This document shows positions 5,699-64,000 of a stretch of DNA of 64,000 bases, piece by piece (positions within the stretch are counted from its first letter, which is position 1; every line of letters starts with the position of its first letter). Source of the DNA: an uncultured Desulfobacter sp. (GTDB lineage: Bacteria; Desulfobacterota; Desulfobacteria; Desulfobacterales; Desulfobacteraceae); assembly GCF_963665355.1 (NCBI RefSeq), contig NZ_OY762229.1, positions 3,968,001-4,032,000 on the forward strand, in the 5' to 3' direction. The translations under genes were made by a program, and so were the position numbers. Under the pieces are notes generated by a model that searched no databases, was not told where the DNA came from, and saw only the letters and a program-made list of their open reading frames with translations.

Positions 5699-5778
5699 GC
5701 GAGAAGAGCCAACGCGTTTGCAATACCAGCTACCGATTGTTAAAGCCCATTCTATCTTTATATATAAGGACCGTTTGT

Positions 5779-48108: not shown

Positions 48109-48128
48109 TTACCGCATGCTTGCGGTAA
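48109..48128 (+). promoter_or_regulatory. Leader hairpin upstream of the PEP-CTERM gene
   Basis: TTACCGCA pairs with TGCGGTAA around TGCT, 35 bases before the ATG. It follows a GC-rich segment (GGGAGCTAAGGCCCC) within an otherwise AT-rich 279-base gap (47885-48163). A structured, possibly regulatory leader is likely; I could not match it to a known riboswitch class. Confidence 0.4.
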
Positions 48129-48163
48129 TCGAAACAAATTCTTTAAGAAGAGAGGTAGAAAAA

Positions 48164-48859
48164 ATGAAACAACTAATTGTAATCTTAATGGTAATCCTTG
48201 TATCTGGAATTTATGGAACCGTACAGGCAACACCAATTTCATCAACCGATCTTTGGGATATCAGCAACGGGGTTGTAATTGATGATACGAGCGGGGTTTT
48301 GAATTACCGTTCTGACTTTAAGTCAGATATTCGAGATATGTTTGGCGGTTCCTATGCTGTAAGTGAAGCGACCAATTCATTATTCAAGGACTATATATCA
48401 CCCGGTATGACAGGCGGTTCCGTGCCTTCCGGTTATACACACTTTGTTGAATGGCATACAACGGCAGACGTTACCGTGAGAAGCTTTATCCTTCATGCCC
48501 AAAATGAAGGGATTTCCAGACGGGCCTTCAACAATTTTGAACTGTTCACTGGGGATGGGTCCGGCACGTGGTCTTCTGTTTATAATTCCGGCACAGTCAG
48601 TTATGACAGCTTTACCGAATTTGCAGTGAATCTTGCCGCACCTGTTGTTGCCCAATATTTCAAAATGGAATTTATTCAGGCCCCTTGGAGCGATCCAAGG
48701 GCAGTCGGGCCCAGAATCAGGGAATTGGACGGATTTGACACATTTTTAGATGGTTCAACCGGAAGTCCATCCCCTGTACCGGAACCTGCAACGCTTCTTC
48801 TTTTAGGTATAGGCTTACTGGGTCTTGCTGGGGGTACCAGAAAGAAAAAAAAACAATAA
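48164..48859 (+). CDS. PEP-CTERM exported protein
   Basis: The 231-residue protein has a signal peptide (MKQLIVILMVILVSGIYG) and ends in a PEP-CTERM sorting signal: VPEPATLLLLGIGLLGLAGG followed by a basic tail. The body is beta-rich and resembles a discoidin or carbohydrate-binding fold by eye (FVEWHTTADVTVRSFILHA), which is uncertain. PEP-CTERM proteins are processed by exosortase and usually go to the surface or extracellular matrix. The ATG at 48164 follows AGAGAGG. No exosortase is in the window. Confidence 0.9.
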   Translation: MKQLIVILMVILVSGIYGTVQATPISSTDLWDISNGVVIDDTSGVLNYRSDFKSDIRDMFGGSYAVSEATNSLFKDYISPGMTGGSVPSGYTHFVEWHTTADVTVRSFILHAQNEGISRRAFNNFELFTGDGSGTWSSVYNSGTVSYDSFTEFAVNLAAPVVAQYFKMEFIQAPWSDPRAVGPRIRELDGFDTFLDGSTGSPSPVPEPATLLLLGIGLLGLAGGTRKKKKQ

Positions 48860-49099: not shown

Positions 49100-49620
49100 G
49101 AGTACACTATAATCGACATTGAGCAATTGAATTTTAAAAAATTTGAATATACCCTCAAAATAACTCATGGTTACTCCAAAGATCACCGTCCTGATTTGAA
49201 ACAGGCTGTGCTGGAGCTGATGGTATCCCAAGATGGCGGCATTCCCATTTTATGTAAGTGCTGGGACGGTAATGCTTCGGACAATACCGTGTTCAAAGAA
49301 CGCAGCAGTGAACTTGTCCGTCAGTTCAAAGCGAGTGATCTCCCCCGTTACCTGATTATGGATTCAAAAGGATATACCGCATCTAATGCTTCCAACTTGA
49401 AAGATATCCCGTTTATCACCCGCATCCCGGGAACCCTTTCCATTGTGACGACAGCCATCGAACAGGCCCTAAAATGGGATCAGTGGGTGGAGATTAACGA
49501 TGATTATCAGTACCAGACGTTGGAGTTAGGACATTATGGAATTGATCAACGTTGGTTGATCATTCGATCCAAAGGGGCTCAGGAGCGCGCTGAAAAGCAG
49601 GACATGAAACCGCGAACGGC
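49100..49620 (+). pseudogene. IS1634-like transposase fragment
   Basis: The frame carries the central DDE part of an IS1634/IS4-type transposase: ITHGYSKDHRPDLKQAVLEL, WDGNASDNTVFKER, PRYLIMDSKGYTASNASNL and LGHYGIDQRWLIIRS. It contains at most about 170 of the expected 500 or more residues and lacks the N-terminal and C-terminal ends. It stops where sequence of another broken gene begins at about 49621. Confidence 0.8.
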
Positions 49621-49641
49621 GTGCTTCCACTTGAATGGGCA

Positions 49642-50148
49642 ATGATATTCAGGTATGAGCACGGTCCCCTGGATTGTGAGGCTGTAGCCGTTGACGGGAC
49701 AAACCACAAAATTTACCTGCTGAGCAAGCGCAAAGCCGTACCCGTTTCATATGAACTGCCCCTGGACATGCCTTGCAAAAAATCAGTGTATACGGCCGTG
49801 ACTGTGGCTGAAATCAGAACCATCCCCGGCGTACCCCCAAAAGACCAAAAGCGAACCGATGGAAGCTTTCGGTACCGGCCCACTGCCATGGATATCAGTG
49901 CCGACGGAAACACCCTTTACATTCTGACCTATACGCACGCCTATGTTTATTCACGGACCCCGGGGGGAAACCTGGGACTCGGCATTTTCAAATTCACCGC
50001 TGCAAATCACTCTGCCGTCTACCTCCAAGACCCTGGCCCAGCGTGAAGCATTGGGGCTTGACCGGACCGGTGGAAACATTTTTATTACATCGGAAATGCT
50101 CCCTGCCCCCATCTATGTGGTTGAGCCTATATCCCGGGCAGCACACTG
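49642..50148 (+). pseudogene. Broken beta-propeller-like protein
   Basis: A fragment reads as repeated four-strand blades (CEAVAVDGTNHKIYLLSKRK; YRPTAMDISADGNTLYILTY). It changes frame near 49980 and ends with GGNIFITSEMLPAPIYVVEP before a stop. There is no signal peptide or start region; the frame begins directly at the IS1634 remnant. The parent was probably an exported propeller protein of unknown activity. Both the 5' truncation and the frameshift mark it as non-functional. Confidence 0.55.
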
Positions 50149-51853: not shown

Positions 51854-53278
51854 TTATTTTTTAGCAGGTTTTGCAACACTGACCACCTGAATGGTGGTGT
51901 AGGCCTTCAAGCCTTCCACGCCGAATTCAGTGCCGATACCGGAAAGCTTGACGCCGCCGAAGGGAGCCAGGGGATGTACCTTGCCATGGGCGTTGATCCA
52001 AACGGTACCTGCTTCCAGGCGCTGGGCCACCGCTTTTGCCTGTTGTACGTCATTGCCCCAGGCCGAGCCGCCCAAACCCACATCCACGGCGTTGGCCCGG
52101 GCAACGGCCTCATCAATGGTGGAATATTTAAGGATGGGCAGCGCCGTACCAAACTGCTCCTCCTTGACCAGATCCATATCATCAGTGACATCAGCCACCA
52201 GGGTCAGGGGATAAAAATATCCCTTGCCCGGCATGGGCTCTCCGCCGCATAGCACGCGAGCCCCTTTGTCCCTGGCATCATCCACATATTGCCTGATGAG
52301 ATTAAACTGGGCGGCATTGGCCAGAGGACCGATCAAATTAGCCTCATTCATGCCGTCACCCACAGGAATTTTGCTCACATAGTCGGCAAATTTTCGGCAC
52401 ACATCTTCATATTGATCCTCATGGACAAAGAGGCGCTTGAGACAGGCACAGGTCTGGCCCGCGTTGATAAAACACCCCCAGAACAGAGGTTCAAGCAACG
52501 GCTCAATATCGGTTCCGGGCAGGATGATACCGGCGTCATTGCCGCCCAATTCAAGAGTCAGAGTCTTCAGGGTGGTAGCCGCCCGCTGCATAATCGTCTG
52601 ACCGACCTCAACGGAGCCGGTAAATACCATTTTATCAATTCCCTTATGGGCGGACATGGCATTGCCGATCTCGGAGCTGCCGGCCACAACATTGAGAACG
52701 CCGGGGGGCAGAATGTCATTAATCAATTCAACCATGCGTAATGTTGAAAGCGGGGTATAGGATGCGGGTTTGATAACAACCGTACAGCCCACACGCAGGG
52801 CCGGCATGATATGCCAGACGGCAATCAACAAAGGCCAGTTCCAGGGGGTGATGGACCCCACAACGCCCACGGGTTTCCGGGTCAGTTCAATGGTGTCTTC
52901 CGGATTGTCGTCAATGAGCTCATTTTCAAGTTTCAGCGATGCCGTCACCTGGGTCCAGGCCATACAGCCCCCCACTTCAAAATTGGCTCCGGGGCCGGAT
53001 TGGGTCTTTCCCTGTTCAAGGGTGATCAACCGGGAGAGTTCCGGCATATTTTTTTCTATAATTCCTGCAATCTGCAGGAGGTATTCAACCCGTTTTTCAT
53101 CGGCCAGTGCCGACCAGGCGGGCAAGGCGTTTCGGGCAGCCGCAACCGCCTGATCCAGCTGCTCGACAGTGGCCCTGGGGCAGACGGCAAACACCTCGCC
53201 CGTTGCCGGATTGATTACATCAAATGTCTCCCGGGTGACAACTTTTTCACCATTTATTACCAAAGCATACTCTGTCAT
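51854..53278 (-). CDS. NAD(P)-dependent aldehyde dehydrogenase
   Basis: The 474-residue ALDH-superfamily enzyme has GSITPWNWPL and FTGSVEVGQTIM for cofactor binding, general base Glu in LELGGND, the catalytic Cys in NAGQTCACLKR and the C-terminal PFGGVKLSGIGTEFG. It should oxidise the aldehyde made by the alcohol dehydrogenases encoded upstream to the acid. Substrate specificity cannot be told. AAGGAACC precedes the ATG, and the gene follows mftF after 69 bases on the same strand. Confidence 0.92.
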   Translation of the reverse strand: MTEYALVINGEKVVTRETFDVINPATGEVFAVCPRATVEQLDQAVAAARNALPAWSALADEKRVEYLLQIAGIIEKNMPELSRLITLEQGKTQSGPGANFEVGGCMAWTQVTASLKLENELIDDNPEDTIELTRKPVGVVGSITPWNWPLLIAVWHIMPALRVGCTVVIKPASYTPLSTLRMVELINDILPPGVLNVVAGSSEIGNAMSAHKGIDKMVFTGSVEVGQTIMQRAATTLKTLTLELGGNDAGIILPGTDIEPLLEPLFWGCFINAGQTCACLKRLFVHEDQYEDVCRKFADYVSKIPVGDGMNEANLIGPLANAAQFNLIRQYVDDARDKGARVLCGGEPMPGKGYFYPLTLVADVTDDMDLVKEEQFGTALPILKYSTIDEAVARANAVDVGLGGSAWGNDVQQAKAVAQRLEAGTVWINAHGKVHPLAPFGGVKLSGIGTEFGVEGLKAYTTIQVVSVAKPAKK

Positions 53279-53347
53279 CGTGGTTCCTTTCGCTTGCGTT
53301 TATGGTTCATATTTCATTTATTCCAAATTTATACGGTGTCCACCATG

Positions 53348-54784
53348 CTAAACAGGTTCAGCCATATGACGGCGCAGCTCCACAACATAACTGCGAAAAT
53401 TCATCCCCTTCACACATCCCCGGAACACCCCCAGGCCATAGGAAATTTGTTCCAAGATATAGAAAAATAAAAAAGAGAGAAAGGGTAGCTGCACTTTTTT
53501 TACCCTGAAATCAACCATCACCGCGCAGCCGAGCATGAGCAGCAGCACGGGTATAAAGAGCGGTTGTAATATCGCAATAACAATCATCATAATTAAATAA
53601 TATCTTACCAGATGAAAGCTAAGATAGTACCACAGGCTGACCAAAGTTCGAAGCCGTGCCCGCATCAGCTGAAAAAGGCCTAAATTCACCCCCATTTTTT
53701 TTGTTTTATTTTTGAGCCCCCGGCTCTCCATAACGATCATGATACCTGCGAGCAGCACACCGGCGAAACCGGTCCAGGGAATGCTCAGGAAAACGAGCAG
53801 CAAGCCTGCAAGCAGCGGCGGCACCACCATCTGCTTTTTCCGATTGGGGTGCAGGCGCTGAAGCACCTCTTCTGATGTGCCGTAAAAAAAACGCCGGGAC
53901 ATGAAAGCGCCCAATTGATTTCGATGCTGGTGAAAAACGGTTCCCCCGGGCATATAAGCGATGCGCCGGCCGTTATCCCGCATACGCCAGCACAGGTCCA
54001 CATCCTCTCCCACCTGCATTGTCGGCGCAAACCCGTTCAGATCCAGGAAAGCGTCTTTCTTGACCAGCAGGTTGCAGCTGGGAAGATAGAAGGTATCCGC
54101 TCCTTTTCCTGCCAGGCGAGGGTGTTCACCAAGGCAAAGACTGGACATGACATCCTCGTACCGGTCAAGGGCTGAAGCCTGGGAGATCCCGGCAACTTTT
54201 CCGCCGACGGCGGCAAGGGTTGAGTCATCAAAAAAGGGAACAAGTTGTCTGAGCCATTCTTTAGAGGCAGTGCAGTCTGAGTCGATGAACGCAAGAATTT
54301 CACCTTTGGCTGCAGCTGCGCCGCAGTTCCTGGCTGCCGCCGGTCCTGCGCCCTCTGCACCGGAGGTGACAACCTTGGCTCCCCATTTCTTTGCATATCC
54401 GGCGCTGTTATCTCTACTGCCGTCATCCACGACGATCACTTCCAGTCGTTCTGTGGGGTAGTCCAATGCGGATAGCGATCCAAGACATCGCCCAAGCTCG
54501 TTTTCCCTGTCCCGTACGGGTATTATGACGCTGACAAAAGGGTATCGTTGCGGCGCTTCGGGGACCGTTTGCACCTGTTCTAAAAAACCCCGGGACACCA
54601 GTTGGTCAAACAGGACGGAGTTCTCAGGGATGTTCGCCACAGGCCCGCCGTCCCGCACTGCTTTGAGCAATCTTGCGCACGCCTGGTTGACTCGCAGGAC
54701 GCAAAGGGGAATCTGTTTTAGGATAACGGCGCCATCGTTCTGTTCGATCAACGTCACCTGGGCTGCAAAACGATAGGTCATCAT
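53348..54784 (-). CDS. mftF: Mycofactocin-system glycosyltransferase MftF
   Basis: Of 478 residues, the first 75 or so resemble a PqqD/RRE-like winged-helix domain (VNQACARLLKAV, then LFDQLVSRGFLEQV). From about 78 a GT-A family 2 domain follows: VSVIIPVRDRENELGRCLGS, VIVVDDGSRDNS, FIDSDCTASKEW (DxD-type metal site) and VGEDVDLCWRMRD. The C-terminal third has several membrane helices. In mycobacteria MftF adds glucose units to the mycofactocin core. The RRE-like N-terminus plus the location in an mft operon supports the name. It starts six bases after etfB. Confidence 0.85.
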   Translation of the reverse strand: MMTYRFAAQVTLIEQNDGAVILKQIPLCVLRVNQACARLLKAVRDGGPVANIPENSVLFDQLVSRGFLEQVQTVPEAPQRYPFVSVIIPVRDRENELGRCLGSLSALDYPTERLEVIVVDDGSRDNSAGYAKKWGAKVVTSGAEGAGPAAARNCGAAAAKGEILAFIDSDCTASKEWLRQLVPFFDDSTLAAVGGKVAGISQASALDRYEDVMSSLCLGEHPRLAGKGADTFYLPSCNLLVKKDAFLDLNGFAPTMQVGEDVDLCWRMRDNGRRIAYMPGGTVFHQHRNQLGAFMSRRFFYGTSEEVLQRLHPNRKKQMVVPPLLAGLLLVFLSIPWTGFAGVLLAGIMIVMESRGLKNKTKKMGVNLGLFQLMRARLRTLVSLWYYLSFHLVRYYLIMMIVIAILQPLFIPVLLLMLGCAVMVDFRVKKVQLPFLSFLFFYILEQISYGLGVFRGCVKGMNFRSYVVELRRHMAEPV

Positions 54785-54790
54785 CGTTTT

Positions 54791-55672
54791 CTAAGGCAGC
54801 AGCCCAACCTTGCCGAACAGGGCCAGCAGGGCATCGGCGGTTTCGTCCGAAGATAGATGGTGAACCTCTCCCAGTCGTGCCGTGACGCCTCCGGCAAGAA
54901 GAGATAAAATTCTTTCAAAAGCCGGTAGGTTATGATCCGGAGTGACAACGCGCACAGGGTCAGGCCGGGGTGTGCCGTAGCCGGCCAACCTCGTAGTCGT
55001 CCCGGCCTGGGAGGCATTCATAAACTTAAGTCCCAGCTCCGCTCTTCCCCACACTTCAATGTGCGCATCAACCGCCTGCACCAGCGCGTCGATACTCGGG
55101 TACCGCGCTTCCTCCCTGCCGGTAAACGTCAAAGCCGCGGGTAGAGGCGTCTTCACGAGTTGTCCGGCACCGTGATCCGTTGTTTTCAAAGTCTGTACGC
55201 CACCATCCTGCACCGTAGCGGTGACAACATTTTGTACGCAGGGAATACCCGATCTTGCGGCTGCAAGGGGAAACAGCGGATCAAAACCACGATCTTCCAT
55301 CACATTGCCGGTGCAGATCAACGCGGGAGAAAGGATATCAAAGGCACGACTCAATACACGCGACAGCCCGGCATCATCATAGCCGCCAAGAGAGCGATCT
55401 CGTATGCGAACCGCACGTTCCGCCCCCATGGACAGACCCGTGCCCAGATGCGCATCCACGCTTTTCGACCCAATGGCCAGAACAGTCAGGAGCCCCCCAT
55501 GTTTCTCCCTAAGCTGCAACGCTTTTTCCAATGCGCCAAGATCACTTGGGTTGAGCATGGTACGCACGTCCCGGGCATTGATTGCATGCCCCCCGTTTTT
55601 TATGCAGGCCGGCGGACGCGGGTCACGACACTGTCGCAGCAGTACGACAATATTGAGTTCATCATTTGCCAT
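54791..55672 (-). CDS. etfB: Electron-transfer flavoprotein beta subunit (FixA-like)
   Basis: The 293-residue protein has the ETF-beta order: an N-terminal strand (LNIVVLLRQCRDPRPP), the conserved NPSDLGALEKALQLRE segment, VLAIGSKSVD and a nucleotide-binding loop around ALICTGNVMEDRGFDPLFPL. The last segment (ARLGEVHHL) departs from classical ETF-beta, so it belongs to a divergent ETF branch. With EtfA it carries electrons from a flavin dehydrogenase to the FixC/FixX quinone reductase. Whether it binds AMP or a second FAD, as in bifurcating Etfs, cannot be judged. Confidence 0.85.
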   Translation of the reverse strand: MANDELNIVVLLRQCRDPRPPACIKNGGHAINARDVRTMLNPSDLGALEKALQLREKHGGLLTVLAIGSKSVDAHLGTGLSMGAERAVRIRDRSLGGYDDAGLSRVLSRAFDILSPALICTGNVMEDRGFDPLFPLAAARSGIPCVQNVVTATVQDGGVQTLKTTDHGAGQLVKTPLPAALTFTGREEARYPSIDALVQAVDAHIEVWGRAELGLKFMNASQAGTTTRLAGYGTPRPDPVRVVTPDHNLPAFERILSLLAGGVTARLGEVHHLSSDETADALLALFGKVGLLP

Positions 55673-55722
55673 CTTTGTTCTTTTTATTCCTCAAAGCAAA
55701 GGGTACACATATAATAAGGATG

Positions 55723-56001
55723 TCAGGTCATTCTGTAGGATACACCAAAACCACCCCGGGGATACCGCCATCGGATAAAGGCTTTGTTCTCACACACAAT
55801 GTAACATGTACCGCATTCCAAACAGGCGTCATAGACAAAACTAAGCCGTTGATCGCTTTGGGACCAGCTGTAGCATCCGGCCGGGCAGGCCGTGGTGCAG
55901 GCGCGGTTGGTGCAAGCCGCACACACGTTTTGATCGACAATGATATGGGGCTCGCGATCAATGGTGAAGCTGGTATAATCTAAAATTTCATCAATATTCA
56001 T
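55723..56001 (-). CDS. fixX: FixX-like ferredoxin
   Basis: This 92-residue ferredoxin-like protein has cysteines arranged as CAACTNRACTTACPAGCYSW and CLECGTCYIVC, enough for one [4Fe-4S] cluster and remnants of a second. The end (WRYPRGGFGVSYR) is typical of FixX. It works with FixC as the iron-sulfur part of ETF:quinone oxidoreductase. Its ATG overlaps the fixC stop by four bases. Confidence 0.92.
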   Translation of the reverse strand: MNIDEILDYTSFTIDREPHIIVDQNVCAACTNRACTTACPAGCYSWSQSDQRLSFVYDACLECGTCYIVCENKAFIRWRYPRGGFGVSYRMT

Positions 56002-57296
56002 AGAGCTCTCCAGGCTGAAAAAATATCCCGGGCAATATTTTTCACACCGATCGTTTTCTTAACGGCAGAAAGGGCAAGTTCGGCAACGCCTTTTTTAGGC
56101 TTGCCGTCAATGCGATAGAGGCTTTCCATAAGCCGACAGGCAAGATCCGGATATGCGTCAAAAATTCTGTCATTATGGAGCATACCGGGTGCGCGTTTAA
56201 ATTTTTTTAAATCCTGCATCACAAAACTGTTTTCCAACAGGTTGTTGTAGCGTTGCAGTCCCGTCTTACTGAAGTCCCTGTTTTTGTGGGCCTCTATGGC
56301 GGCCTGCGCCGCCAGGATTCCTGAGTGGGAGGCGAGGTTGACGCCCTCTAAATGCAGGCCGGTCACATTGCAAAACGCCGCAGCGTCCCCTGCAACAAGA
56401 ATTCCGTTGCCCACAAGCTGGGGGACCATCTCATAGCCGCCTTCCGGGATGATATGGGCGGAATACTCCATGAGGCGTCCACCTTTGAGCAATTTTTTCA
56501 GATGCGGATGGGCCGTAAAATCATTTAGCAGATCACAGGGGGTTTTCTTACTTTTTTTCAGGCTGCCGATATGCGCAACAAGTCCGATGGAAACAGAGTC
56601 GTAGTTGGTATAAAGACATCCGCCTCCCCGCACGCCGGCATTGCAGCCCACAAACTCATTGGCAACGCCCTGGTTGCGGACGAGCCCGAACCGGTCATCA
56701 ATGACTTGTTTAGGCAGATCGTACAGCGCCTTGACACCCACGGCCATCTGATCGGGGTTGAAGGCTGGAGATCTCAGACCGGCTTTTGCTGCGATAAATG
56801 AGAGCACACCGTCTGCGGCAATGATGACGGGGGCACAAAGCTTTCCGGTCCGCCCCAGCACCGTTATCCCTTTTACCCGGCCCTGCTCCATGATAACGTC
56901 ATCCACCATTGCCCTGGTGATCAGGGTTGCCCCCGCTTCCACCGCCTGCCGGGCCAGCCAGTTGTCAAATTTGGGCCGCAGAACCGTATACCCGTTATAT
57001 GGCGCCCGGTCAAAATTGCCGGACTCCAATTGAAGGTTCACCGTTGAATCGGCATTCATGAAAGTTAGGCTTTTTTTGTTCACATGACGTTCAATGGGGG
57101 CCTTGCGCCAGTATTCGGGAATATAGTCTTCAAGGGAGCTCATGCGATGCAGCAGACCGCCGAACATATTTTTTTCACCAGGGAAATTGCCCCGCTCCAA
57201 AAGCGCAACATCAAGTCCGGCCCGGGCCAGGGCCAGGGCTGCCGAAGAACCGGCAGGGCCTGCCCCAACCACAATGGCTTGGAATAAACGTGTCAT
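55998..57296 (-). CDS. fixC: FixC-like ETF:quinone oxidoreductase flavoprotein
   Basis: The 432-residue flavoprotein has an N-terminal FAD Rossmann motif (AIVVGAGPAGSSAALALARA), the family's NMFGGLLHRMSSLEDYIPEY segment and a C-terminal FAD contact (GILVAGDAAAFCNVTGLHLE, then GVNLASHSG). FixC accepts electrons from ETF and, with FixX, reduces membrane quinone. It follows etfA with no gap. Here the quinone would be menaquinone, consistent with the ubiE gene in the same window. Confidence 0.93.
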   Translation of the reverse strand: MTRLFQAIVVGAGPAGSSAALALARAGLDVALLERGNFPGEKNMFGGLLHRMSSLEDYIPEYWRKAPIERHVNKKSLTFMNADSTVNLQLESGNFDRAPYNGYTVLRPKFDNWLARQAVEAGATLITRAMVDDVIMEQGRVKGITVLGRTGKLCAPVIIAADGVLSFIAAKAGLRSPAFNPDQMAVGVKALYDLPKQVIDDRFGLVRNQGVANEFVGCNAGVRGGGCLYTNYDSVSIGLVAHIGSLKKSKKTPCDLLNDFTAHPHLKKLLKGGRLMEYSAHIIPEGGYEMVPQLVGNGILVAGDAAAFCNVTGLHLEGVNLASHSGILAAQAAIEAHKNRDFSKTGLQRYNNLLENSFVMQDLKKFKRAPGMLHNDRIFDAYPDLACRLMESLYRIDGKPKKGVAELALSAVKKTIGVKNIARDIFSAWRAL

Positions 57297-58313
57297 TTAT
57301 TTTCCCCCCGTGGCCGTGCGCACCCGTTCAAGCAGTCGTGGTAAAATTTCCTTCACATCGGCGACAAACCCCTGGTCCGCATTGGGAAAGATGGGGGCTT
57401 TGGCATCGTTGTTGATTGCAACGATGTGCTGTGCGTCCTGAATGCCTCCCACATGGTGCATGGAGCCGGAAACCCCAAACGTGACGTAGAGCCTCGGCTT
57501 AACGCACCTTCCTGTCCGGCCCACCATTCTGTCAAAGTCTGCCCATCCCAAATCATACACCGGCCGGGTCACCCCAAGGGAGGTGCCAAGCAGCCGGCAC
57601 AACTCGCGGAGTTGTTCAAAATCGGCGTTGTCACACCCTTTGCCGGCGCAAAAAATCACATCGGCGTCAGTCAAATCAACGGTTTGGGGGTCCGACGGGA
57701 TTCTCTCCACAATAACGGAACATTTGGTGGCTGATTCAGCAAGTTCAGCTTCAGCCGGTGATATGTACTCATTGATCTGTAAAGAAGTTTTGGCATCCGT
57801 ATGGAGGCTGACCGGACTCAACGCGTTGACCGGAACGGTGATGAGCAGAAATCCGCGTTGATGCCAGATCCGTGCCTCATCAATGCGCCGGCCCATTACC
57901 CGACGGCTCAGTTGTATTCCTTGATCATTGCGGCTTAAGGCATTGACTTCGGTGACCAGTGCCGCATCAAGCCTGGCGGCCAGCAACGGTGCCAGGGTAC
58001 ACCCTAAATCATTGTGGGCAAAGGCGATGATACCCCCGTTTTGCTCGGCGACAAATCCGGCAAGCATGGCGCCCAGTATCTGCGGGGTGTCAAGATACCG
58101 TTCTGCGTTCTTAAGTATGGTCACTTCAGGCACACCGTAGTCGGCGAACATCTGTCGGGTTTCCAGCCCAAGCGGAGAAAAAACAAGTGCACGCCAAGAA
58201 GAATCAAGAAGTTTCGACAGACGCGCACCATAGGACAAAAGCCCCTGTCCCGTCCTGTCTGGTGCCCCTTCGGGCAGTTCCGTCACAAGCCACAGATCAT
58301 TACACCCCATCAC
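57297..58313 (-). CDS. etfA: Electron-transfer flavoprotein alpha subunit (FixB-like)
   Basis: The 338-residue protein has the two-lobed ETF-alpha layout. The N-terminal lobe is divergent. The C-terminal FAD-binding lobe is well conserved: GTSLGVTRPVYDLGWADFDR, GRTGRCVKPRLYVTFGVSGS, then HHVGGIQDAQHIVAINNDAK and APIFPNADQGF. It holds the FAD that passes electrons to FixC. Its ATG overlaps the stop of the upstream flavoprotein gene by four bases, showing one transcript with the mycofactocin genes. Confidence 0.92.
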   Translation of the reverse strand: MMGCNDLWLVTELPEGAPDRTGQGLLSYGARLSKLLDSSWRALVFSPLGLETRQMFADYGVPEVTILKNAERYLDTPQILGAMLAGFVAEQNGGIIAFAHNDLGCTLAPLLAARLDAALVTEVNALSRNDQGIQLSRRVMGRRIDEARIWHQRGFLLITVPVNALSPVSLHTDAKTSLQINEYISPAEAELAESATKCSVIVERIPSDPQTVDLTDADVIFCAGKGCDNADFEQLRELCRLLGTSLGVTRPVYDLGWADFDRMVGRTGRCVKPRLYVTFGVSGSMHHVGGIQDAQHIVAINNDAKAPIFPNADQGFVADVKEILPRLLERVRTATGGK

Positions 58314-60277
58314 AGTTCTCTTCCCACCTTGTGCCCTTCCCAGATGGCCATATCAAGTTTGCGGGGTGCCACGCAGTCCCCGATCCTGTGCAGCTCAGGC
58401 ACCTTACCTTTCAACGATTGGTAGAGACCGTCATTGACCTGCTGGCCCATGGCAAGCACCAGGGTGTCATAAGGTCCCCATTCATGCCACTGGTTGGAAT
58501 AGACATTAAACCCTTTGACCCTTTTTTCCCCCTTTTCCCCGCCGATTTCCATGACCGCAATATCAGGCGTGAAGGTGATGCCTTTTTGCAGCAAGCGTTG
58601 GCGGGTCAGGTACAGGTCCTGGGTTGGTCCAAGTTCGGCGCCGATGAACAGACTTGAGGTGATCATATGGACCTTTTTGCCCTGATCCGCCAGAAACTCC
58701 GCCGTGGCGGATGCCCGATGATGGCCGTCATAGTCGATAAAGCCGATATGCTCGCCAAGCTCGGCCTCGCCGTTGAGCACCTGCCAGACATTGAACACTG
58801 CCGGGCCGTCCCACCCGCCCACGGGATATTCTTTGGGCACACTGCCGGTGGCCACGATCACGGCGTCGGGTTGTTCTGCCGCCACAAGTTCAGGGGTCAC
58901 GGTCACGCCCAAACAAAGCTTAACACCGGCTTTCTCCAGCTGTGCCTTTTCATTGCGGACAACGACCCCGACCTCATCACGGCCGGCACCTTTCATGGCA
59001 ATGTTGACCTGACCGCCCACCTGCGCCTGCCGCTCGTACAGCGTCACATCATGGCCGCGCCGGGCAGCCATCTTGGCGGCCCACATACCGGCCGGCCCCG
59101 CGCCTGCAATGAGCACTTTCTTTTTCACTGCGGCAGGGGTGGTGTATGTTTCTCCCCCCATCTCCTTTTCCCGACCCACGCAGGGATTTTGTATACAGCC
59201 AAGGGTTTTGTTCATGCCGATACGGCCGATGCAGCCCTGGTTGTCGGCGATACAGTGCCGGATATCATCAAGCCGTCCGGTTTGCGCCTTTCGGGGCAAA
59301 AAGGGGTCGCAGATAAGCCCCCGGCACATGCCGATCATGTCGGCCTGTCCTGCTTCAAGCACCTTTTCCGCCATGACCGGATCATTGATGCGCCCGGTGC
59401 AGAAAACCGGCAGATTCACCTTCTCCCGCATGCCTGCGGCCAGGGGGATGGTATACCCCAGGGGCATGTGCATGGTGCCTTCCACCAGATAGAGATTGTA
59501 GAAGGTGGCAATGGAGAGATCCATAAAATCAATCAGGCCGCTTTGTTCGAAAATCATGCCGATCTCCTGGACATCGGCAAGGTTCAAGCCGCCCGGAATC
59601 ATTTCATCCGCGCACATCCGGATGCCGATGGTAAAATCCCGGCCCACGGCCCGGCGAACCGCCTCAACAAACATCAGCGGTGCCCGCATGCGATTCTCAA
59701 GGCTGCCGCCAAACTGATCCTGCCTGAAATTGGTCAAGGGAGAGAGAAACTGCCGGGCCAGGCTGGAGTGGCCGAACTGGATCTCCACACCGTCAAAGCC
59801 TCCCTCCCGAACGTGAAGGGCGCTTTGGGCAAAATATTGGGTCACCTCATCAATATCTTCGGGCTCCATCTCCTTGGGTGTCTCCCTGAACAGCACATCC
59901 GGCATGGGACTGGGTGCCCAGACAGGAAGTCTGGAGTTGGAACCGTCACATTGCTGGCCATTGTGGTTGATCTGGGCAAAAATGCGGCAATCATACTGGT
60001 GAATGTGATCGGTGATTTTTTTAAACCCGTCCACAACCCGGGGGTGATAGACATCAATGAGTTTCTCATACGCCATATCCGTGGGATGGACGCTCATCTC
60101 CTCGGTGATGATCAACCCGGCACCGCCCCTGGCCCGCTCTCCCCAATAATACATCTGGCGCTCACTGGGCATATTGTTGACCGCAAAATTGGTCAAATGT
60201 GGTTGAAAGGAGATACGATTTTTAACTTCGACAGTCCCCAGGGTAATGGGTGAAAACAGCTTGTTAAAAGTTGACAT
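58310..60277 (-). CDS. Old-yellow-enzyme/FadH-type flavoprotein, mycofactocin-linked
   Basis: The 655-residue protein has an FMN TIM barrel (SPITLGTVEVKNRISFQPHL, FGGSLENRMRAPLMFVEAVR), iron-sulfur cysteines in the middle (CIGRIGMNKTLGCIQNPCVG) and a C-terminal FAD/NAD(P) domain (LIAGAGPAGMWAAKMAARRG). This is the 2,4-dienoyl-CoA reductase / trimethylamine dehydrogenase architecture. A subgroup occurs in mycofactocin clusters with unknown substrate. Because it sits directly upstream of etfA it could donate electrons to ETF, as trimethylamine dehydrogenase does. GAGGAG lies somewhat far (11 bases) from the ATG. Confidence 0.88.
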   Translation of the reverse strand: MSTFNKLFSPITLGTVEVKNRISFQPHLTNFAVNNMPSERQMYYWGERARGGAGLIITEEMSVHPTDMAYEKLIDVYHPRVVDGFKKITDHIHQYDCRIFAQINHNGQQCDGSNSRLPVWAPSPMPDVLFRETPKEMEPEDIDEVTQYFAQSALHVREGGFDGVEIQFGHSSLARQFLSPLTNFRQDQFGGSLENRMRAPLMFVEAVRRAVGRDFTIGIRMCADEMIPGGLNLADVQEIGMIFEQSGLIDFMDLSIATFYNLYLVEGTMHMPLGYTIPLAAGMREKVNLPVFCTGRINDPVMAEKVLEAGQADMIGMCRGLICDPFLPRKAQTGRLDDIRHCIADNQGCIGRIGMNKTLGCIQNPCVGREKEMGGETYTTPAAVKKKVLIAGAGPAGMWAAKMAARRGHDVTLYERQAQVGGQVNIAMKGAGRDEVGVVVRNEKAQLEKAGVKLCLGVTVTPELVAAEQPDAVIVATGSVPKEYPVGGWDGPAVFNVWQVLNGEAELGEHIGFIDYDGHHRASATAEFLADQGKKVHMITSSLFIGAELGPTQDLYLTRQRLLQKGITFTPDIAVMEIGGEKGEKRVKGFNVYSNQWHEWGPYDTLVLAMGQQVNDGLYQSLKGKVPELHRIGDCVAPRKLDMAIWEGHKVGREL

Positions 60278-60314
60278 GTCTTAAAAAACTCCTCTTTGGC
60301 AATACATTTACATG

Positions 60315-61352
60315 TCATACGCCGGCGTGCGCATCGGCAATGGCCGTCACGCAACGCTCAAGGCATTCGGGGTCACCGCCCGCAATCTCATTTTTCAGAT
60401 GGTACGCAACGGCCGGGCACCCGCCGTGACACTGGTCAAACCGTTTGCAATCCTCACAGGAGTGAATACGAAGGCTGCGAAAGGATTGAAAAATCTCCGC
60501 ATTGTCCCAGATGTCAAGAAAGGCGGATTGCCTTATCGAGCCTGCATAAAACCGCTCACTTTGCAAAAATGCACAGGGGAAGACATCGCCTGTGGGCCCG
60601 ACGCAACAGGTCAACTTGGCCGCCCCGCAGAGATTTAACCCCAGTCCCTGCCGCTCCTGGGAGGTCAAAGAGAAAAAACTGTCGCCGGTGCGCACATCGG
60701 GGCAGTCGTTAAGCCATTGTGAAAAGGTAATAAGCTGGTGGGCTGTGGGCCGCAACATCTCCCAGTTTTCCCGGCCCCGCCCCGACGGACGAAATCGGCT
60801 GGCCCTGAATGACACGCCCATGGATTGTGCCAGCGCATGCAGTGCAGGAATCTCAGCCGCATTCTGGGCTGTGAGTACTGTATTGATGCTGGTGGAGATG
60901 GGGGTTGCCGCCAGCATTTTAACCGCTTCGACTGCGCCTTCAAAGGTGCCTTTGCCCCGTATGGCGTCACAGCCGGCAGGCGTTGCGCCGTCAATGCTGA
61001 CCTGGACGGCAACCCAATCGCTTTTTTCTGCCAGTGTTGCGACTTTTTCTTTATCAAGCAGCAGGCCGTTGGTGGAGATACAGGTCATGATATTCTTCTC
61101 ATGGCACCGCTCCAGAATCTGGTAGAAATCAGGCCTGATAAACGGTTCGCCACCACCAAAATTAATCTGAAACACAGTGGCCGCACTGAGTTGATCGATC
61201 AGATCAAAGGCCTCCCGGGTGGACAATTCGTTTTCAGCGGGCAGTCCGGAGGCCGAAAGGCAGTGGCTGCACCGCAGGTTACACTGCTGGGTCACTTCCC
61301 AGGTAAGGTTGACAGGGGCACTGAGCCCCTGCTCAACATATCTATTGCTCAT
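60315..61352 (-). CDS. mftC: Radical SAM maturase MftC
   Basis: The 345-residue enzyme has the radical-SAM motif CNLRCSHC near the N-terminus (ATG at 61352) and INFGGGEPFIRP. A C-terminal SPASM domain carries auxiliary cluster cysteines: LNLCGAAKLTCCVGPTGDVF, PCAFLQ, then CEDCKRFDQCHGGCPAV and DPECLERC. In mycobacteria MftC decarboxylates the C-terminal tyrosine of MftA and crosslinks it to valine. The mftB-mftC overlap of 11 bases and adjacency to mftA make the assignment strong. A TTG seven codons upstream is an alternative start. Confidence 0.95.
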   Translation of the reverse strand: MSNRYVEQGLSAPVNLTWEVTQQCNLRCSHCLSASGLPAENELSTREAFDLIDQLSAATVFQINFGGGEPFIRPDFYQILERCHEKNIMTCISTNGLLLDKEKVATLAEKSDWVAVQVSIDGATPAGCDAIRGKGTFEGAVEAVKMLAATPISTSINTVLTAQNAAEIPALHALAQSMGVSFRASRFRPSGRGRENWEMLRPTAHQLITFSQWLNDCPDVRTGDSFFSLTSQERQGLGLNLCGAAKLTCCVGPTGDVFPCAFLQSERFYAGSIRQSAFLDIWDNAEIFQSFRSLRIHSCEDCKRFDQCHGGCPAVAYHLKNEIAGGDPECLERCVTAIADAHAGV

Positions 61353-61590
61353 ACACAAACCCCTTTTGCACAAGTTGCCTGAGAAACGTCAGAATAACTT
61401 TCTTTTGATTATCAGGCAACGACGCCAGCACCTTTTTTTGAACAGAATCCTTTTGGAAAAACGCGCAGGTCAACACCGAACCTGTCTCTGCAAAAAGGAG
61501 CTTTGGCCCCAGGGAGCTGTAAAAGAGCAGACCGAACTGCTCCTGCCTCACCTGGCTGGTCGACCGTAACACAAAGGCAGGGTCGTTCAT
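61342..61590 (-). CDS. mftB: Mycofactocin peptide chaperone MftB
   Basis: The predicted 82-residue protein has the winged-helix RiPP recognition fold by pattern: beta strands at the start (QEQFGLLFYSSLGPKLLFAE) and a helical end (VILTFLRQLVQKGFVYEQ). MftB binds the leader of MftA and presents it to MftC. The ATG at 61590 lies two bases after the mftA stop codon; a TTG at 61608 would overlap mftA. Its stop codon lies within the first codons of mftC. Confidence 0.93.
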   Translation of the reverse strand: MNDPAFVLRSTSQVRQEQFGLLFYSSLGPKLLFAETGSVLTCAFFQKDSVQKKVLASLPDNQKKVILTFLRQLVQKGFVYEQ

Positions 61591-61592
61591 GA

Positions 61593-61745
61593 TCAGTAGA
61601 CTCCGCAAATCCCGTCTATGGCCAGTTCTTCAATTCTGATTTCCTCAATAATGCAGGGGGCCTCCTGGATATTTTCCATTGTCTCTTTGTCAATCCCGGC
61701 AGTTTGTTCCGTATTTTTTATTTCTTTGCGTGTCGTTTTTTCCAT
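61593..61745 (-). CDS. mftA: Mycofactocin precursor peptide MftA
   Basis: This 50-residue peptide has a charged leader (about 1-40, with one Cys in EAPCIIEEIRIEELA) and ends in IDGICGVY, the invariant C-terminus of mycofactocin precursors. The last two residues, Val-Tyr, become the redox core after MftC action. GGAGAAAAG precedes the ATG at 61745. It sits 29 bases after the alcohol dehydrogenase gene and just before mftB. It is too short for most gene finders, so it may be missing from automatic annotations. Confidence 0.97.
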   Translation of the reverse strand: MEKTTRKEIKNTEQTAGIDKETMENIQEAPCIIEEIRIEELAIDGICGVY

Positions 61746-61774
61746 TATACTTTTCTCCGTGTAAATAGTGGCCT

Positions 61775-62917
61775 TTAATCGATTTCACAAACCCAACGGC
61801 CTTTAATCTGCCGTTTGTCCATGGCCTCGGCCACATCATTAATATCGTCCAGTTTAAATCTTTTAGTAATCAGCTTGTCAAGCTTAAGATCATGCTGCAT
61901 CGCCATCTTGACCAGACGGGGGATATCATCATGGGTTGAAATCGAACCATAGAGATTCCCCTTGATGGTCTTCTGGTGCAGCGGCAGAAGCATCAAGGGC
62001 AGATTGGTTGTCTGATCATGGGGGGAGACACCGATAACAATCAACTCACCTCCGATACTTGTGGACCAGTAGGCCTGGATGATTGCACCGGGATCACCTT
62101 TTACTTCAAACACATACTCTGCGCCGCCGCCCATGATGCTGCCGTCCGCCATCTTTACGCCGCCGGTGAGCAGCTGAATGGCCGGGACCGGATCTTCTCT
62201 GGAACTGTCGATGAAATGGGTGGCGCCGAATTCCATGGCCAGTTCCCGTTTGCTGCCTTCAATATCAACGGCAATTAACGGGTAGGCATGGCGCATGGCT
62301 GCGGCCCGCAGAACATTGAGGCCGACACCGCCAAGACAGTAAACGGCCACAGAGGCCCCGGGAGTAAAGGCGGCCGTATTAAACACAGAGCCCCAGCCCG
62401 TGGGAACGCAACATCCCATCAGCGCGGCCTGCTCCAGAGGGAACTCTTTGGGCATGGGAATGACCGCCCGTTCGGGAACCACCGAGTGTGTTGAAAAACA
62501 GGAGACAAAATTTCCGTGCCGAACCACACCGCCATTGGCATCTCTCATGCGTGCGGTGCCGTCAAGCAGGAAACCTTCCAGAAAATAATTGAAACTGGTG
62601 GTGCAGATATTGCCCTTGCCCCTGCGGCAATTGGGACAATGTCCACAGGGAACCATCCAGGTAACGCCCACATGATCGCCCTTTTTTACGGAAGTGACGC
62701 CCGGACCGACGGCTTCAACAATACCTGCGCCTTCGTGACCTGCAACCAAAGGCATCTTGACGGGGACTTCACCTTTGAGCATATGCAAGTCGGAATGACA
62801 GTATCCGGTATGGGTGTACTTGATCAGCACCTCATTTGCCTTGGGTGGATCCAATTCCAGAGTTTCAATGGAATATTTCATACCGGGTTCCCGTAAAACA
62901 GCACCTTTGATCTTCAT
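61775..62917 (-). CDS. NDMA-type zinc alcohol dehydrogenase, mycofactocin-linked
   Basis: The 380-residue zinc-dependent medium-chain dehydrogenase has catalytic zinc ligands in HTGYCHSDLH and AGHEGAGIVEAVG. Structural zinc cysteines lie in CGHCPNCRRGKGNIC, and the nucleotide-binding turn is YCLGGVGLNVL. It belongs by pattern to the NDMA-dependent (nicotinoprotein) alcohol dehydrogenases, which keep their NAD bound and depend on an external acceptor; mycofactocin is thought to fill that role. It is the first gene before mftA, with AAGGAGACGCT upstream. A near-identical paralogue is encoded just upstream. Confidence 0.93.
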   Translation of the reverse strand: MKIKGAVLREPGMKYSIETLELDPPKANEVLIKYTHTGYCHSDLHMLKGEVPVKMPLVAGHEGAGIVEAVGPGVTSVKKGDHVGVTWMVPCGHCPNCRRGKGNICTTSFNYFLEGFLLDGTARMRDANGGVVRHGNFVSCFSTHSVVPERAVIPMPKEFPLEQAALMGCCVPTGWGSVFNTAAFTPGASVAVYCLGGVGLNVLRAAAMRHAYPLIAVDIEGSKRELAMEFGATHFIDSSREDPVPAIQLLTGGVKMADGSIMGGGAEYVFEVKGDPGAIIQAYWSTSIGGELIVIGVSPHDQTTNLPLMLLPLHQKTIKGNLYGSISTHDDIPRLVKMAMQHDLKLDKLITKRFKLDDINDVAEAMDKRQIKGRWVCEID

Positions 62918-63173
62918 AGCGTCTCCTTGTGGACTTCAATATGGTTGTTGCATGGGTAAAACACGGGGGAATTGGGCGGGGTATCAAAACTGCCTGTTCT
63001 TCCTGGTTCATCTCCTTGCAGGTTCTATCATCCCTTAAACCGCCCGACTTTATCGCGGTCCGGGAACTCATCCGTTTGACTTTCAAACGGGTTGGGATAA
63101 TACCATGACAATAGAGGGTCGGCAACAGCCATGAATTTTAATTTGTCAAGGAAAAGCTTTACAACTTTAAAAA
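62918..63173 (-). promoter_or_regulatory. Likely promoter region of the mycofactocin operon
   Basis: A terminator closes the upstream alcohol dehydrogenase gene at 63174-63208, so the operon beginning at 62917 needs its own promoter in this 256-base gap. The ribosome site AAGGAGACG is clear. I could not assign -35/-10 boxes or an operator with confidence. Confidence 0.45.
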
Positions 63174-63208
63174 ATAAAAAAAAGTTGGATGGGGTACCCC
63201 ATCCAACT
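63174..63208 (-). terminator. Rho-independent terminator between the two dehydrogenases
   Basis: A perfect 26-bp palindrome (63183-63208) is followed on the minus strand by an almost pure T-run (63168-63182). It separates the upstream dehydrogenase from the mycofactocin operon. Confidence 0.95.
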
Positions 63209-63220
63209 CATTAATATTTT

Positions 63221-64000
63221 CTAATCTATTTCACAGACCCAACGACCTTTAATCTGACGTTTATCCATGGCCTCGGCCACATCATTGATATCTTCAAGTT
63301 TAAATCTATCCGTGATCAGCTTGTCCAGTTTCAGATCATGGTTCATTGCCATCTTGACCAGGCGGGGGATATCATCATGGGTGGAGATGGCACCGTAAAG
63401 ATTTCCCTTGATGGTTTTTTGATGCAGCGGCAGCAACATCAGGGATAAATCGGTTGTCTGATCGTGGGGGGTGATGCCCAGAACAATCAGTTCACCGCCG
63501 ATACTTGTGGACCAGTAGGCCTGGATGATCGAACCTGGATCGCCTTTTACCTCAAATACATACTCTGCACCACCGCCCATAATGGTGCCGTCATCCATTT
63601 TAACACCGCCGGTAAGCAGCTGGATGGCCGGTACCGGATCTTCCTTGGAGCTGTCGATAAAGTGGGTGGCGCCAAATTCCATGGCCAGTTCACGCTTACT
63701 GCCCTCAATATCAACGGCGATCAACGGATAGGCATGACGCATGGCTGCGGCCCGCAAAACATTAAGTCCGACGCCGCCAAGGCAGTAAACCGCCACAGGG
63801 GCTCCGGGAGGAAAGGCCGCGGTATTAAACACAGAACCCCATCCCGTGGGGACACAACACCCCATGAGCGCGGCCTGCTCCAGGGGGAATTCTTTGGGCA
63901 TGGGAATGACCGCCCGCTCGGGAACCACCGAATGCGTTGAAAAACATGAAACAAAATTACCATGCCGGACCATATCTCCCTTGGCATCCCTTATGCGTGA
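63221..64000 (-). CDS. Second NDMA-type zinc alcohol dehydrogenase, 5' end outside window
   Basis: The last 260 codons of a paralogue of the downstream dehydrogenase are visible. The frame is open to the window edge (RIRDAKGDMVRHGNF at its visible start). Differences from the first copy are few and mostly conservative, for example IGVSPHDQTT versus LGITPHDQTT. The nucleotide-binding turn YCLGGVGLNVL is intact. The strong terminator after it suggests separate expression. The zinc-binding N-terminal part lies outside the window. Confidence 0.92.
   Translation of the reverse strand, partial: SRIRDAKGDMVRHGNFVSCFSTHSVVPERAVIPMPKEFPLEQAALMGCCVPTGWGSVFNTAAFPPGAPVAVYCLGGVGLNVLRAAAMRHAYPLIAVDIEGSKRELAMEFGATHFIDSSKEDPVPAIQLLTGGVKMDDGTIMGGGAEYVFEVKGDPGSIIQAYWSTSIGGELIVLGITPHDQTTDLSLMLLPLHQKTIKGNLYGAISTHDDIPRLVKMAMNHDLKLDKLITDRFKLEDINDVAEAMDKRQIKGRWVCEID

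Follow-up and report, generated by a model that had tools for sequence, protein, structure and literature searches.

A mycofactocin locus of an uncultured Desulfobacter with an OYE2-ETF gene block in the position of mftD

Gene content of the locus

The window analysed here comprises 64,000 nucleotides, corresponding to positions 3,968,001-4,032,000 of contig C2 in the near-finished genome of an uncultured Desulfobacter (G000; three contigs, 5.64 Mb, 100% complete). Its right part, from 51.8 to 64.0 kb, carries on the minus strand a gene cluster for the cofactor mycofactocin (mft), which from the right edge reads ADH1, ADH2, mftA, mftB, mftC, OYE2, etfA, fixC, fixX, etfB, mftF and an aldehyde dehydrogenase gene. 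All of these genes had been listed in the initial annotation, and each was found at its place on this single strand. The curated NCBIfam cut-offs served as threshold for protein calls, and scores are given as bits/cut-off. The flavoprotein OYE2, of the FadH/old yellow enzyme (OYE) type, and the genes for the electron transfer flavoprotein (ETF) and its FixC and FixX partners are referred to as the block. The features are:

63221..64000, minus: ADH1, Zn-dependent alcohol dehydrogenase, running past the window to about 64363; best match of the fragment TIGR03989, below the cut-off; full open reading frame in L010/L068
63182..63209 (L068 12183-12210), minus: terminator-like hairpin and T run between ADH1 and ADH2; 12 pairs, 6 of them G-C, tail TTTTTTATTT
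61775..62917, minus: ADH2, Zn-dependent alcohol dehydrogenase, 380 aa; PF08240 and PF00107; TIGR03989 344/440
61593..61745, minus: mftA, precursor, 50 aa, ending IDGICGVY; NF040489 (variant MftA) 43.4/30, TIGR03969 34.2/25
61342..61590, minus: mftB, peptide chaperone, 82 aa, ATG start; TIGR03967 46.1/33
60315..61352, minus: mftC, radical SAM/SPASM maturase, 345 aa, ATG start; TIGR03962 350.3/265, PF04055 and PF13186
58310..60277, minus: OYE2, FadH/OYE-type flavoprotein, 655 aa; TIGR03997 949.9/793.15; PDB relatives 6qkg, 1ps9, 1djn and 3k30
57297..58313, minus: etfA, ETF alpha subunit; PF00766 and PF01012; NF038209 138.2/240 (below cut-off)
55998..57296, minus: fixC, ETF:quinone oxidoreductase-like; best PDB match 7koe_C, 269.9 bits
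55723..56001, minus: fixX, ferredoxin-like; PRK15449 FixX 69.7/166, PF05187
54791..55672, minus: etfB, divergent ETF beta subunit; PF01012 78.7 bits, TIGR04503 54.5/200 (below cut-off)
53348..54784, minus: mftF, glycosyltransferase; TIGR03965 363.5/280, PF00535
51854..53278, minus: aldehyde dehydrogenase, 474 aa; PF00171 483 bits

The genes are tightly packed. From ADH2 to mftF no intergenic gap exceeds 50 nt, mftA and mftB are spaced by 2 nt, and the overlaps noted earlier for mftB/mftC (11 nt, 61342-61352), OYE2/etfA (4 nt, 58310-58313) and fixC/fixX (4 nt, 55998-56001) were borne out by the coordinates. The reading frames of the operon genes are all open. Profile searches for MftA, MftB, MftC and MftF, which the initial annotation had proposed, were run, and all four proteins exceeded the curated cut-offs; in the available text of PMC3023750, MftB, MftC and MftF are described as universal markers of mft neighbourhoods. 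MftA ends in LAIDGICGVY, in agreement with the pattern IDGxCGVY and with Val-Tyr as its core, and scores higher with the variant model NF040489 than with the standard model TIGR03969. The earlier designation of the host as a likely sulfate reducer is supported by dsrA in the genome (602 bits, cut-off 392.85).

The locus thus shares with the mycobacterial mftABCDEF(G) system an MftA ending in IDGxCGVY, MftB, MftC, MftF and alcohol dehydrogenase partners. It differs in that neither MftD nor MftE was recognised, no MftG occurs among the operon genes, OYE2-etfA-fixC-fixX-etfB lies in the mftD slot and the host bears dsrA. The nearest named relatives found were two contigs of a Desulfobacterales metagenome-assembled genome (MAG), which match parts of the window MftC at 90 and 92% identity. 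In the congeneric genome G281 (locus L046) the gene order is conserved at 62-97% protein identity.

MftD and MftE

In the known pathway, as set out in the available text of PMC7491314, MftE releases the cyclised Val-Tyr core (AHDP) and MftD deaminates AHDP to the redox-active ketoamide. Mycobacterial mftD deletion abolishes mycofactocin and mftE deletion merely lowers it, the residual mycofactocin of M. smegmatis without MftE being ascribed by the authors to another peptidase (same text). The MftD step is termed aerobic in the accessible part of PMC8406134, and according to that of PMC3023750 MftD and MftE occur in most, not all, mft species. Neither gene is present at the window locus. In the whole window genome, a profile search gave no match to MftE at E<=0.001 and no MftD over the cut-off, the best superfamily match reaching 108.9 of the required 470.85 bits. 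The operon, previously regarded as complete-looking, is therefore not complete as far as recognised genes are concerned, as mftD and mftE are without one in both locus and genome.

Within the order, mftC occurs in 23 of 291 genomes, and none of these 23 encodes MftD or MftE over the cut-off; MftE-like matches of the creatininase family below the cut-off were obtained in eight. A further 19 genomes of the phylum have an mftC-like match (below the cut-off itself in three), and among them MftD exceeded the cut-off in one (G656) and MftE in none. As positive controls, plasmids with annotated mft genes gave 715 and 710 bits for MftD and 175.6 bits for MftE, and the MftD profile reached 650 bits in another MftD bearer. 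The likely MftE of Thermomicrobium roseum, annotated only as creatininase family, scored 136 bits, below the cut-off, which may thus miss true MftE proteins. The missing MftE is also the lesser puzzle, since its loss in M. smegmatis only lowers mycofactocin.

That neither protein is recognised in the genome, and that the variant precursor model fits the window MftA better than the standard one, would also be expected if the final product were not mycofactocin, the core staying on the peptide or keeping its amine and a different redox-active molecule being used. We consider this improbable. In six precursors tested, the variant score does not track MftD; the MftA of the MftD-bearing locus L016 also prefers the variant model, and a Streptomyces MftA from a cluster without mftD matches only the standard one. 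The Val-Tyr core is the same as in mycobacterial MftA, and mycobacteria without MftE still make mycofactocin (PMC7491314, available text). In addition, Saccharopolyspora erythraea is said, in the accessible part of PMC11162802, to make methylated mycofactocin though its cluster type lacks mftD.

Distribution of MftD and the OYE2-ETF block

A tblastn search with the window MftC (E<=1e-40) yielded 12 mft plasmid records, four with MftD, eight with OYE2-etfA-fixC-fixX-etfB, none with both and none with neither. No OYE2 block was found on the MftD plasmids, which belong to Tsukamurella, Mycolicibacterium, one Streptomyces and Thermomicrobium, and no MftD on the block plasmids of six Streptomyces and two haloarchaea. 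As the plasmid-wide OYE2 search (E<=1e-100) missed the Halolamina gene, which was found only at the locus with a haloarchaeal query, a diverged OYE2 may lie elsewhere in the four MftD records. MftD-like matches (47%) were also present on two Sphingopyxis plasmids outside the 12 mftC records.

The five annotated Streptomyces block plasmids read mftA-B-C-OYE1-OYE2-etfA-fixC-fixX-etfB, with the block beginning directly after mftC, and on the Streptomyces plasmid of the other type (mftA-B-C-D-E-F) mftD starts at this very position. The Streptomyces clusters without mftD have mftABC, the block and mftF in common with the window but contain an extra OYE1-type gene and in several cases mftE, whereas the window has Zn-dependent alcohol dehydrogenases and an aldehyde dehydrogenase and no MftE. 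The haloarchaeal plasmids pHTUR01 and pCBA1230-01 carry OYE-etfA-fixC-fixX-etfB beside mftA-B-C-F without an MftD match on the plasmid; they differ in the presence of MftE (or an adjacent creatininase-family gene) and in the divergent orientation of the block. Saccharopolyspora clusters, including the cluster type of S. erythraea mentioned above, resemble the window in lacking mftD and carrying TIGR03997 (BGCFlow 2024, PMC11162802, available text).

Subsequently, 59 loci were compared jointly, pooling OYE1, OYE2 and haloarchaeal OYE queries at at least 250 bits and including a partial match of 270 bits at a contig end (L064). None of them has both MftD and an OYE-type gene or block. Among the 43 loci with a Val-Tyr precursor, an OYE1/OYE2-type gene is present locally in 32 (in 20 together with FixC; most of the others combine two OYE genes with EtfA), and MftD in five. 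The remaining six are L016, with MftD on the same contig, L021, a fragment whose sister fragment L020 carries the block, and L051, L055, L060 and L122. A 2x2 test on 42 Val-Tyr loci, with L016 counted as MftD and L021 dropped, gave p 4e-5 when these non-independent loci were treated as independent.

An apparent exchange is seen between two close relatives, L016 (MAG KA08, Desulfuromonadales) and L018 (MAG M55B183, Deltaproteobacteria). Of their aligned DNA, the four longest stretches (1.2-3.8 kb) show 84-87% identity and five that are shorter show 68-80%; their MftC proteins are 95% identical and sisters on the tree. L018 has a 5.5-kb OYE2-EtfAB-FixCX block between mftC and mftF where L016 has about 95 bases, and L016 carries MftD 17.6 kb away on the same contig. 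In a third relative, L019, the block is likewise missing, and MftD is encoded within 3 kb of mftA. Across the order, OYE2 exceeded the cut-off in 15 of the 23 mftC-bearing genomes and in 4 of the 268 others (Fisher p 3.5e-16, relatedness ignored); in several of the former, OYE2 and mftC are tens of kb apart or on different contigs.

The mutual exclusivity of block and MftD suggests that the block also, or instead, performs the job of MftD. The initial annotation had viewed the flavoprotein and ETF genes as an electron outlet only; such an outlet is plausible, but a restriction to this role leaves the exclusivity unexplained.

Predicted function of the block

NCBIfam already names OYE2 ("mycofactocin system FadH/OYE family oxidoreductase 2") as well as mft-linked ETF subunits. 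By similarity to solved structures, OYE2 falls in a family of multicentre flavoproteins with 6qkg ("NCR", which we take to be 2-naphthoyl-CoA reductase; 313 bits), dienoyl-CoA reductase (273 bits), trimethylamine dehydrogenase (223 bits) and histamine dehydrogenase (205 bits). The latter two oxidise amines and give electrons to ETF. OYE2 retains a histidine aligned with a histidine of trimethylamine dehydrogenase, presumably an active-site residue. In the clade of the window, the cysteine that is the second iron-sulfur ligand is replaced by aspartate (e.g., CIADNQGC; L068, L046, L020, L104, L111, L113, L115-L118 and L065), whereas other OYE2 relatives keep it (CIACNQGC). The possibility that the gene encodes an unrelated catabolic reductase was rejected, as it co-occurs with mftC and is exclusive with MftD.

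The gene set EtfA, EtfB, FixC and FixX is that of EtfABCX/FixABCX systems, with OYE2, whose gene overlaps etfA by 4 nt, as the apparent partner in the window. EtfA retains its flavin adenine dinucleotide domain. EtfB differs from its counterparts in that the loop common to 4kpu_B and 5ol2_B is replaced in alignments to both; this segment (GRQAIDGDTAQVGP in 4kpu_B) we take to be the nucleotide loop of electron-bifurcating EtfB. Bifurcation of NADH electrons in the known way was rejected on the basis of the missing loop. ETF together with FixC/FixX is a classical route to quinone, and the best match of FixC, 7koe_C, is presumably EtfC of the Thermotoga EtfABCX complex. Thermotoga EtfABCX reduces menaquinone, as stated in the available text of PMC10734219. 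Taken together, the family of OYE2, the intact domain of EtfA and the likeness of FixC to 7koe_C make it plausible that the block passes two electrons from a substrate to menaquinone.

Based on these sequence comparisons, we propose that in mycofactocin operons without mftD the OYE2-ETF-quinone chain replaces MftD, with or without a role in recycling, a proposition that we regard as evenly balanced. MftC would cyclise the Val-Tyr core of MftA, and a peptidase encoded elsewhere, unlinked to the locus, would free the cyclised core. OYE2, rather than the O2-using MftD, would then convert the amino intermediate oxidatively into the redox-active ketoamide, the electrons passing through EtfAB and FixCX to menaquinone, and MftF would glycosylate the cofactor. 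Electrons from alcohol would be transferred to the cofactor by the alcohol dehydrogenases; its re-oxidation into the respiratory pool, which is the job of MftG in mycobacteria, would probably fall to the same OYE2-ETF-FixCX chain, and the aldehyde dehydrogenase would form the acid. The chain thereby probably also sends alcohol electrons to menaquinone, and such re-oxidation of mycofactocinol would explain the link to quinone. Replacement of MftD is favoured since it explains the exclusivity and fits both the aerobic nature of the MftD step and the mycofactocin ascribed to S. erythraea. More tentatively, and with less confidence than in the replacement as such, OYE2-EtfAB-FixCX might stand in for MftD in haloarchaea, Actinobacteria and Desulfobacterota alike, as a pre-mycofactocin synthase that is independent of oxygen and coupled to quinone, the same chain finishing and recycling the cofactor and thus tying its maturation to the quinone pool.

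Alternatively, the block may be a respiratory outlet only, which oxidises mycofactocinol and reduces menaquinone as MftG does, with another, unrecognised enzyme deaminating the core. The match of FixC to 7koe_C and the quinone route expected for ETF with FixC/FixX agree with such a role, as does locus L065, where a CCG iron-sulfur protein and a multihaem cytochrome at the outlet position look respiratory. Furthermore, mftG is annotated in two of the four MftD-type plasmid records, and neither of two MftG queries matched any of the eight OYE2-type records; a diverged MftG would be missed, however, as the two queries did not find each other. MftG is reported for 75% of mft organisms in the available text of PMC11778925, so that the rest may use another outlet. 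This reading does not account for the failure to find MftD, a step essential in mycobacteria, in any of the block-bearing cases, nor for the presence of MftD in L016 and L019, which have no block. We therefore regard a mere outlet as rather unlikely.

Several observations weigh against a replacement of MftD. With respect to chemistry, the reductases rank above the amine dehydrogenases among the solved relatives of OYE2. In trimethylamine dehydrogenase a cysteine binds flavin mononucleotide covalently, and OYE2 differs in lacking it: the Leu of PHLTN in the window aligns with an Ala of 1djq, which we take to be a Cys-to-Ala variant of that enzyme, and no row of the OYE2 alignment has Cys in this stretch. 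The CCG protein and multihaem cytochrome that L065 has instead of FixCX fit bulk respiration as readily as biosynthesis. The locus yielded no recognised peptidase candidate, and the absence of MftG refers to the operon genes, the genome at large not having been searched for it. With respect to distribution, the plasmid counts cover plasmid records and MftD may lie on the chromosomes of the hosts; many of the 59 loci are short contigs, and L018 was examined as one contig, so MftD may lie on its others. Four of the 43 Val-Tyr loci (L051, L055, L060 and L122) have neither MftD nor OYE at the locus; the genomes of L051, L060 and L122 have an OYE2-family gene elsewhere, and that of L055 (G101) has neither MftD over the cut-off nor an OYE2 match at E<=1e-150. 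The MftC tree, whose bootstrap had not settled, provides four independent contrasts in MftD, in which OYE2 changed in the opposite way in 3.9 on average and never in the same way (p 0.125); with only four pairs this test cannot reach significance. Finally, four genomes without mftC have OYE2 over the cut-off: G164 and G198, which are 80-81% complete and from a genus with another mftC member (G141), G006 (94% complete) and G151 (84%).

If the chain replaces MftD, this would show in what way mycofactocin, with its deamination known as an aerobic step, can be formed where oxygen or MftD is lacking. The orphan OYE2 family and its ETF partners would gain a function, and an alcohol metabolism in sulfate reducers that uses a separate redox pool would be indicated. 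The proposal also gives a clear comparative test, namely MftD or OYE2-ETF, not both. Within the open-licence literature, we found no paper joining mycofactocin with electron transfer flavoprotein, and, at the level of titles and abstract beginnings, none proposing an exchange of MftD and the block or describing the type without mftD in a sulfate reducer.

Alcohol and aldehyde dehydrogenases

ADH1 is truncated by the end of the window, with a likely ATG start about 363 bases beyond it, and is 93% identical to ADH2. The terminator-like site between the two genes indicates that ADH1 may be transcribed apart from ADH2; the scan that identified it found 23 such sites, with 17.9 expected by shuffling. 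Both genes had been annotated as NDMA-type zinc alcohol dehydrogenases, of which the zinc-dependent type was confirmed, but both stay under the cut-off of the curated NDMA-dependent family TIGR03989, outside which ADH2 falls with the score given above. At E<=1e-75, matches to ADH2 occur in 7 of the 291 order genomes, six of which have mftC (p 8e-7, relatedness ignored); the seventh, G034 (43% identity), is mftC-negative. This distribution resembles the "only-if" pattern used for mycofactocin-coupled dehydrogenases in the available text of PMC3023750, even though the curated cut-off is not reached. Among the mft loci compared for it, the aldehyde dehydrogenase gene was found only in G000 and its congener G281, and would round off an alcohol-to-acid reading of the operon. 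Of the overall interpretation given in the initial annotation, it stands that this genome, which bears dsrA, has a mycofactocin locus with dehydrogenases nearby and that a route to menaquinone is plausible; completeness does not stand.

Origin of the locus

Among six genomes drawn from the genus of the window, two have mftC. The window MftC is 70-71% identical to that of six loci (L016-L019, L105 and L117), the named ones of which are Desulfuromonadales or Deltaproteobacteria MAGs, but 49-55% identical to that of 21 mftC loci of its own order outside the genus. It falls with the former group in a 14-row clade (support 100/100), the inner order of which is poorly resolved. As MftC is closer to Desulfuromonadales-type loci than to its own order and patchy in the genus, relatives of the Desulfuromonadales are the probable lateral source of the operon. 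In the available text of Haft 2011 (PMC3023750), mft clusters are described in Geobacter, Desulfotomaculum and Pelotomaculum.

The patchy distribution in order and genus, together with the scores of the alcohol dehydrogenases below the NDMA family cut-off, might also point to a laterally acquired remnant, or to dehydrogenases that use free NAD while the mft genes lie idle. This appears very improbable, as all frames are open, G281 keeps the gene order at the protein identities given above, and all but one of the genomes with an ADH2 match at E<=1e-75 possess mftC.

Ile-Tyr precursors and further radical SAM genes

Thirteen MftA precursors end in Ile-Tyr (VDGICGIY) rather than Val-Tyr (L048, L049, L052, L053, L056-L059, L061, L062, L066, L109 and L121), and none of their loci has MftD. 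The corresponding MftC proteins all fall in one 16-row clade (support 100/99). LarE, LarB and/or LarC, for synthesis of the nickel-pincer cofactor, were found near mftC in 18 of the 59 mft loci, namely in 13 of the 23 order genomes and at five other loci of the phylum (in all L048, L049, L052, L053, L055-L059, L061-L063, L066, L104, L111, L115, L116 and L121). A link between Lar and mycofactocin was not found among the top open-licence papers on the subject. In genome G336 a Val-Tyr/OYE2 locus (L106) occurs alongside an Ile-Tyr/Lar locus (L121), pointing to two distinct cofactors.

Just outside the window, a second radical SAM gene lies divergent from ADH1 (L068:13667-14794, plus strand, equal to 64666-65793) and scores under every NCBIfam cut-off listed; such a gene is also located beside the mft loci of G281 and L021. 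A role for it as the missing maturation enzyme was weighed and provisionally set aside. Other MftC-like radical SAM genes occur in L016-L018, L057, L067, L110 and L114. In L018, a short open reading frame ending in NDGFCGGY (4789-5121) overlaps a radical SAM/SPASM gene (5106-6248) near mft, and in L017 an open reading frame (1354-1935) ends in GDGFCGAY; both tails resemble precursors of another radical SAM peptide system.

Elsewhere in the window, an IS701-type transposase gene (41496-42833), a protein with a PEP-CTERM sorting signal (48116-48859; TIGR02595 27.1/16) and, roughly 2 kb past the aldehyde dehydrogenase gene, part of an IS1634-type transposase (49127-49645) were identified.

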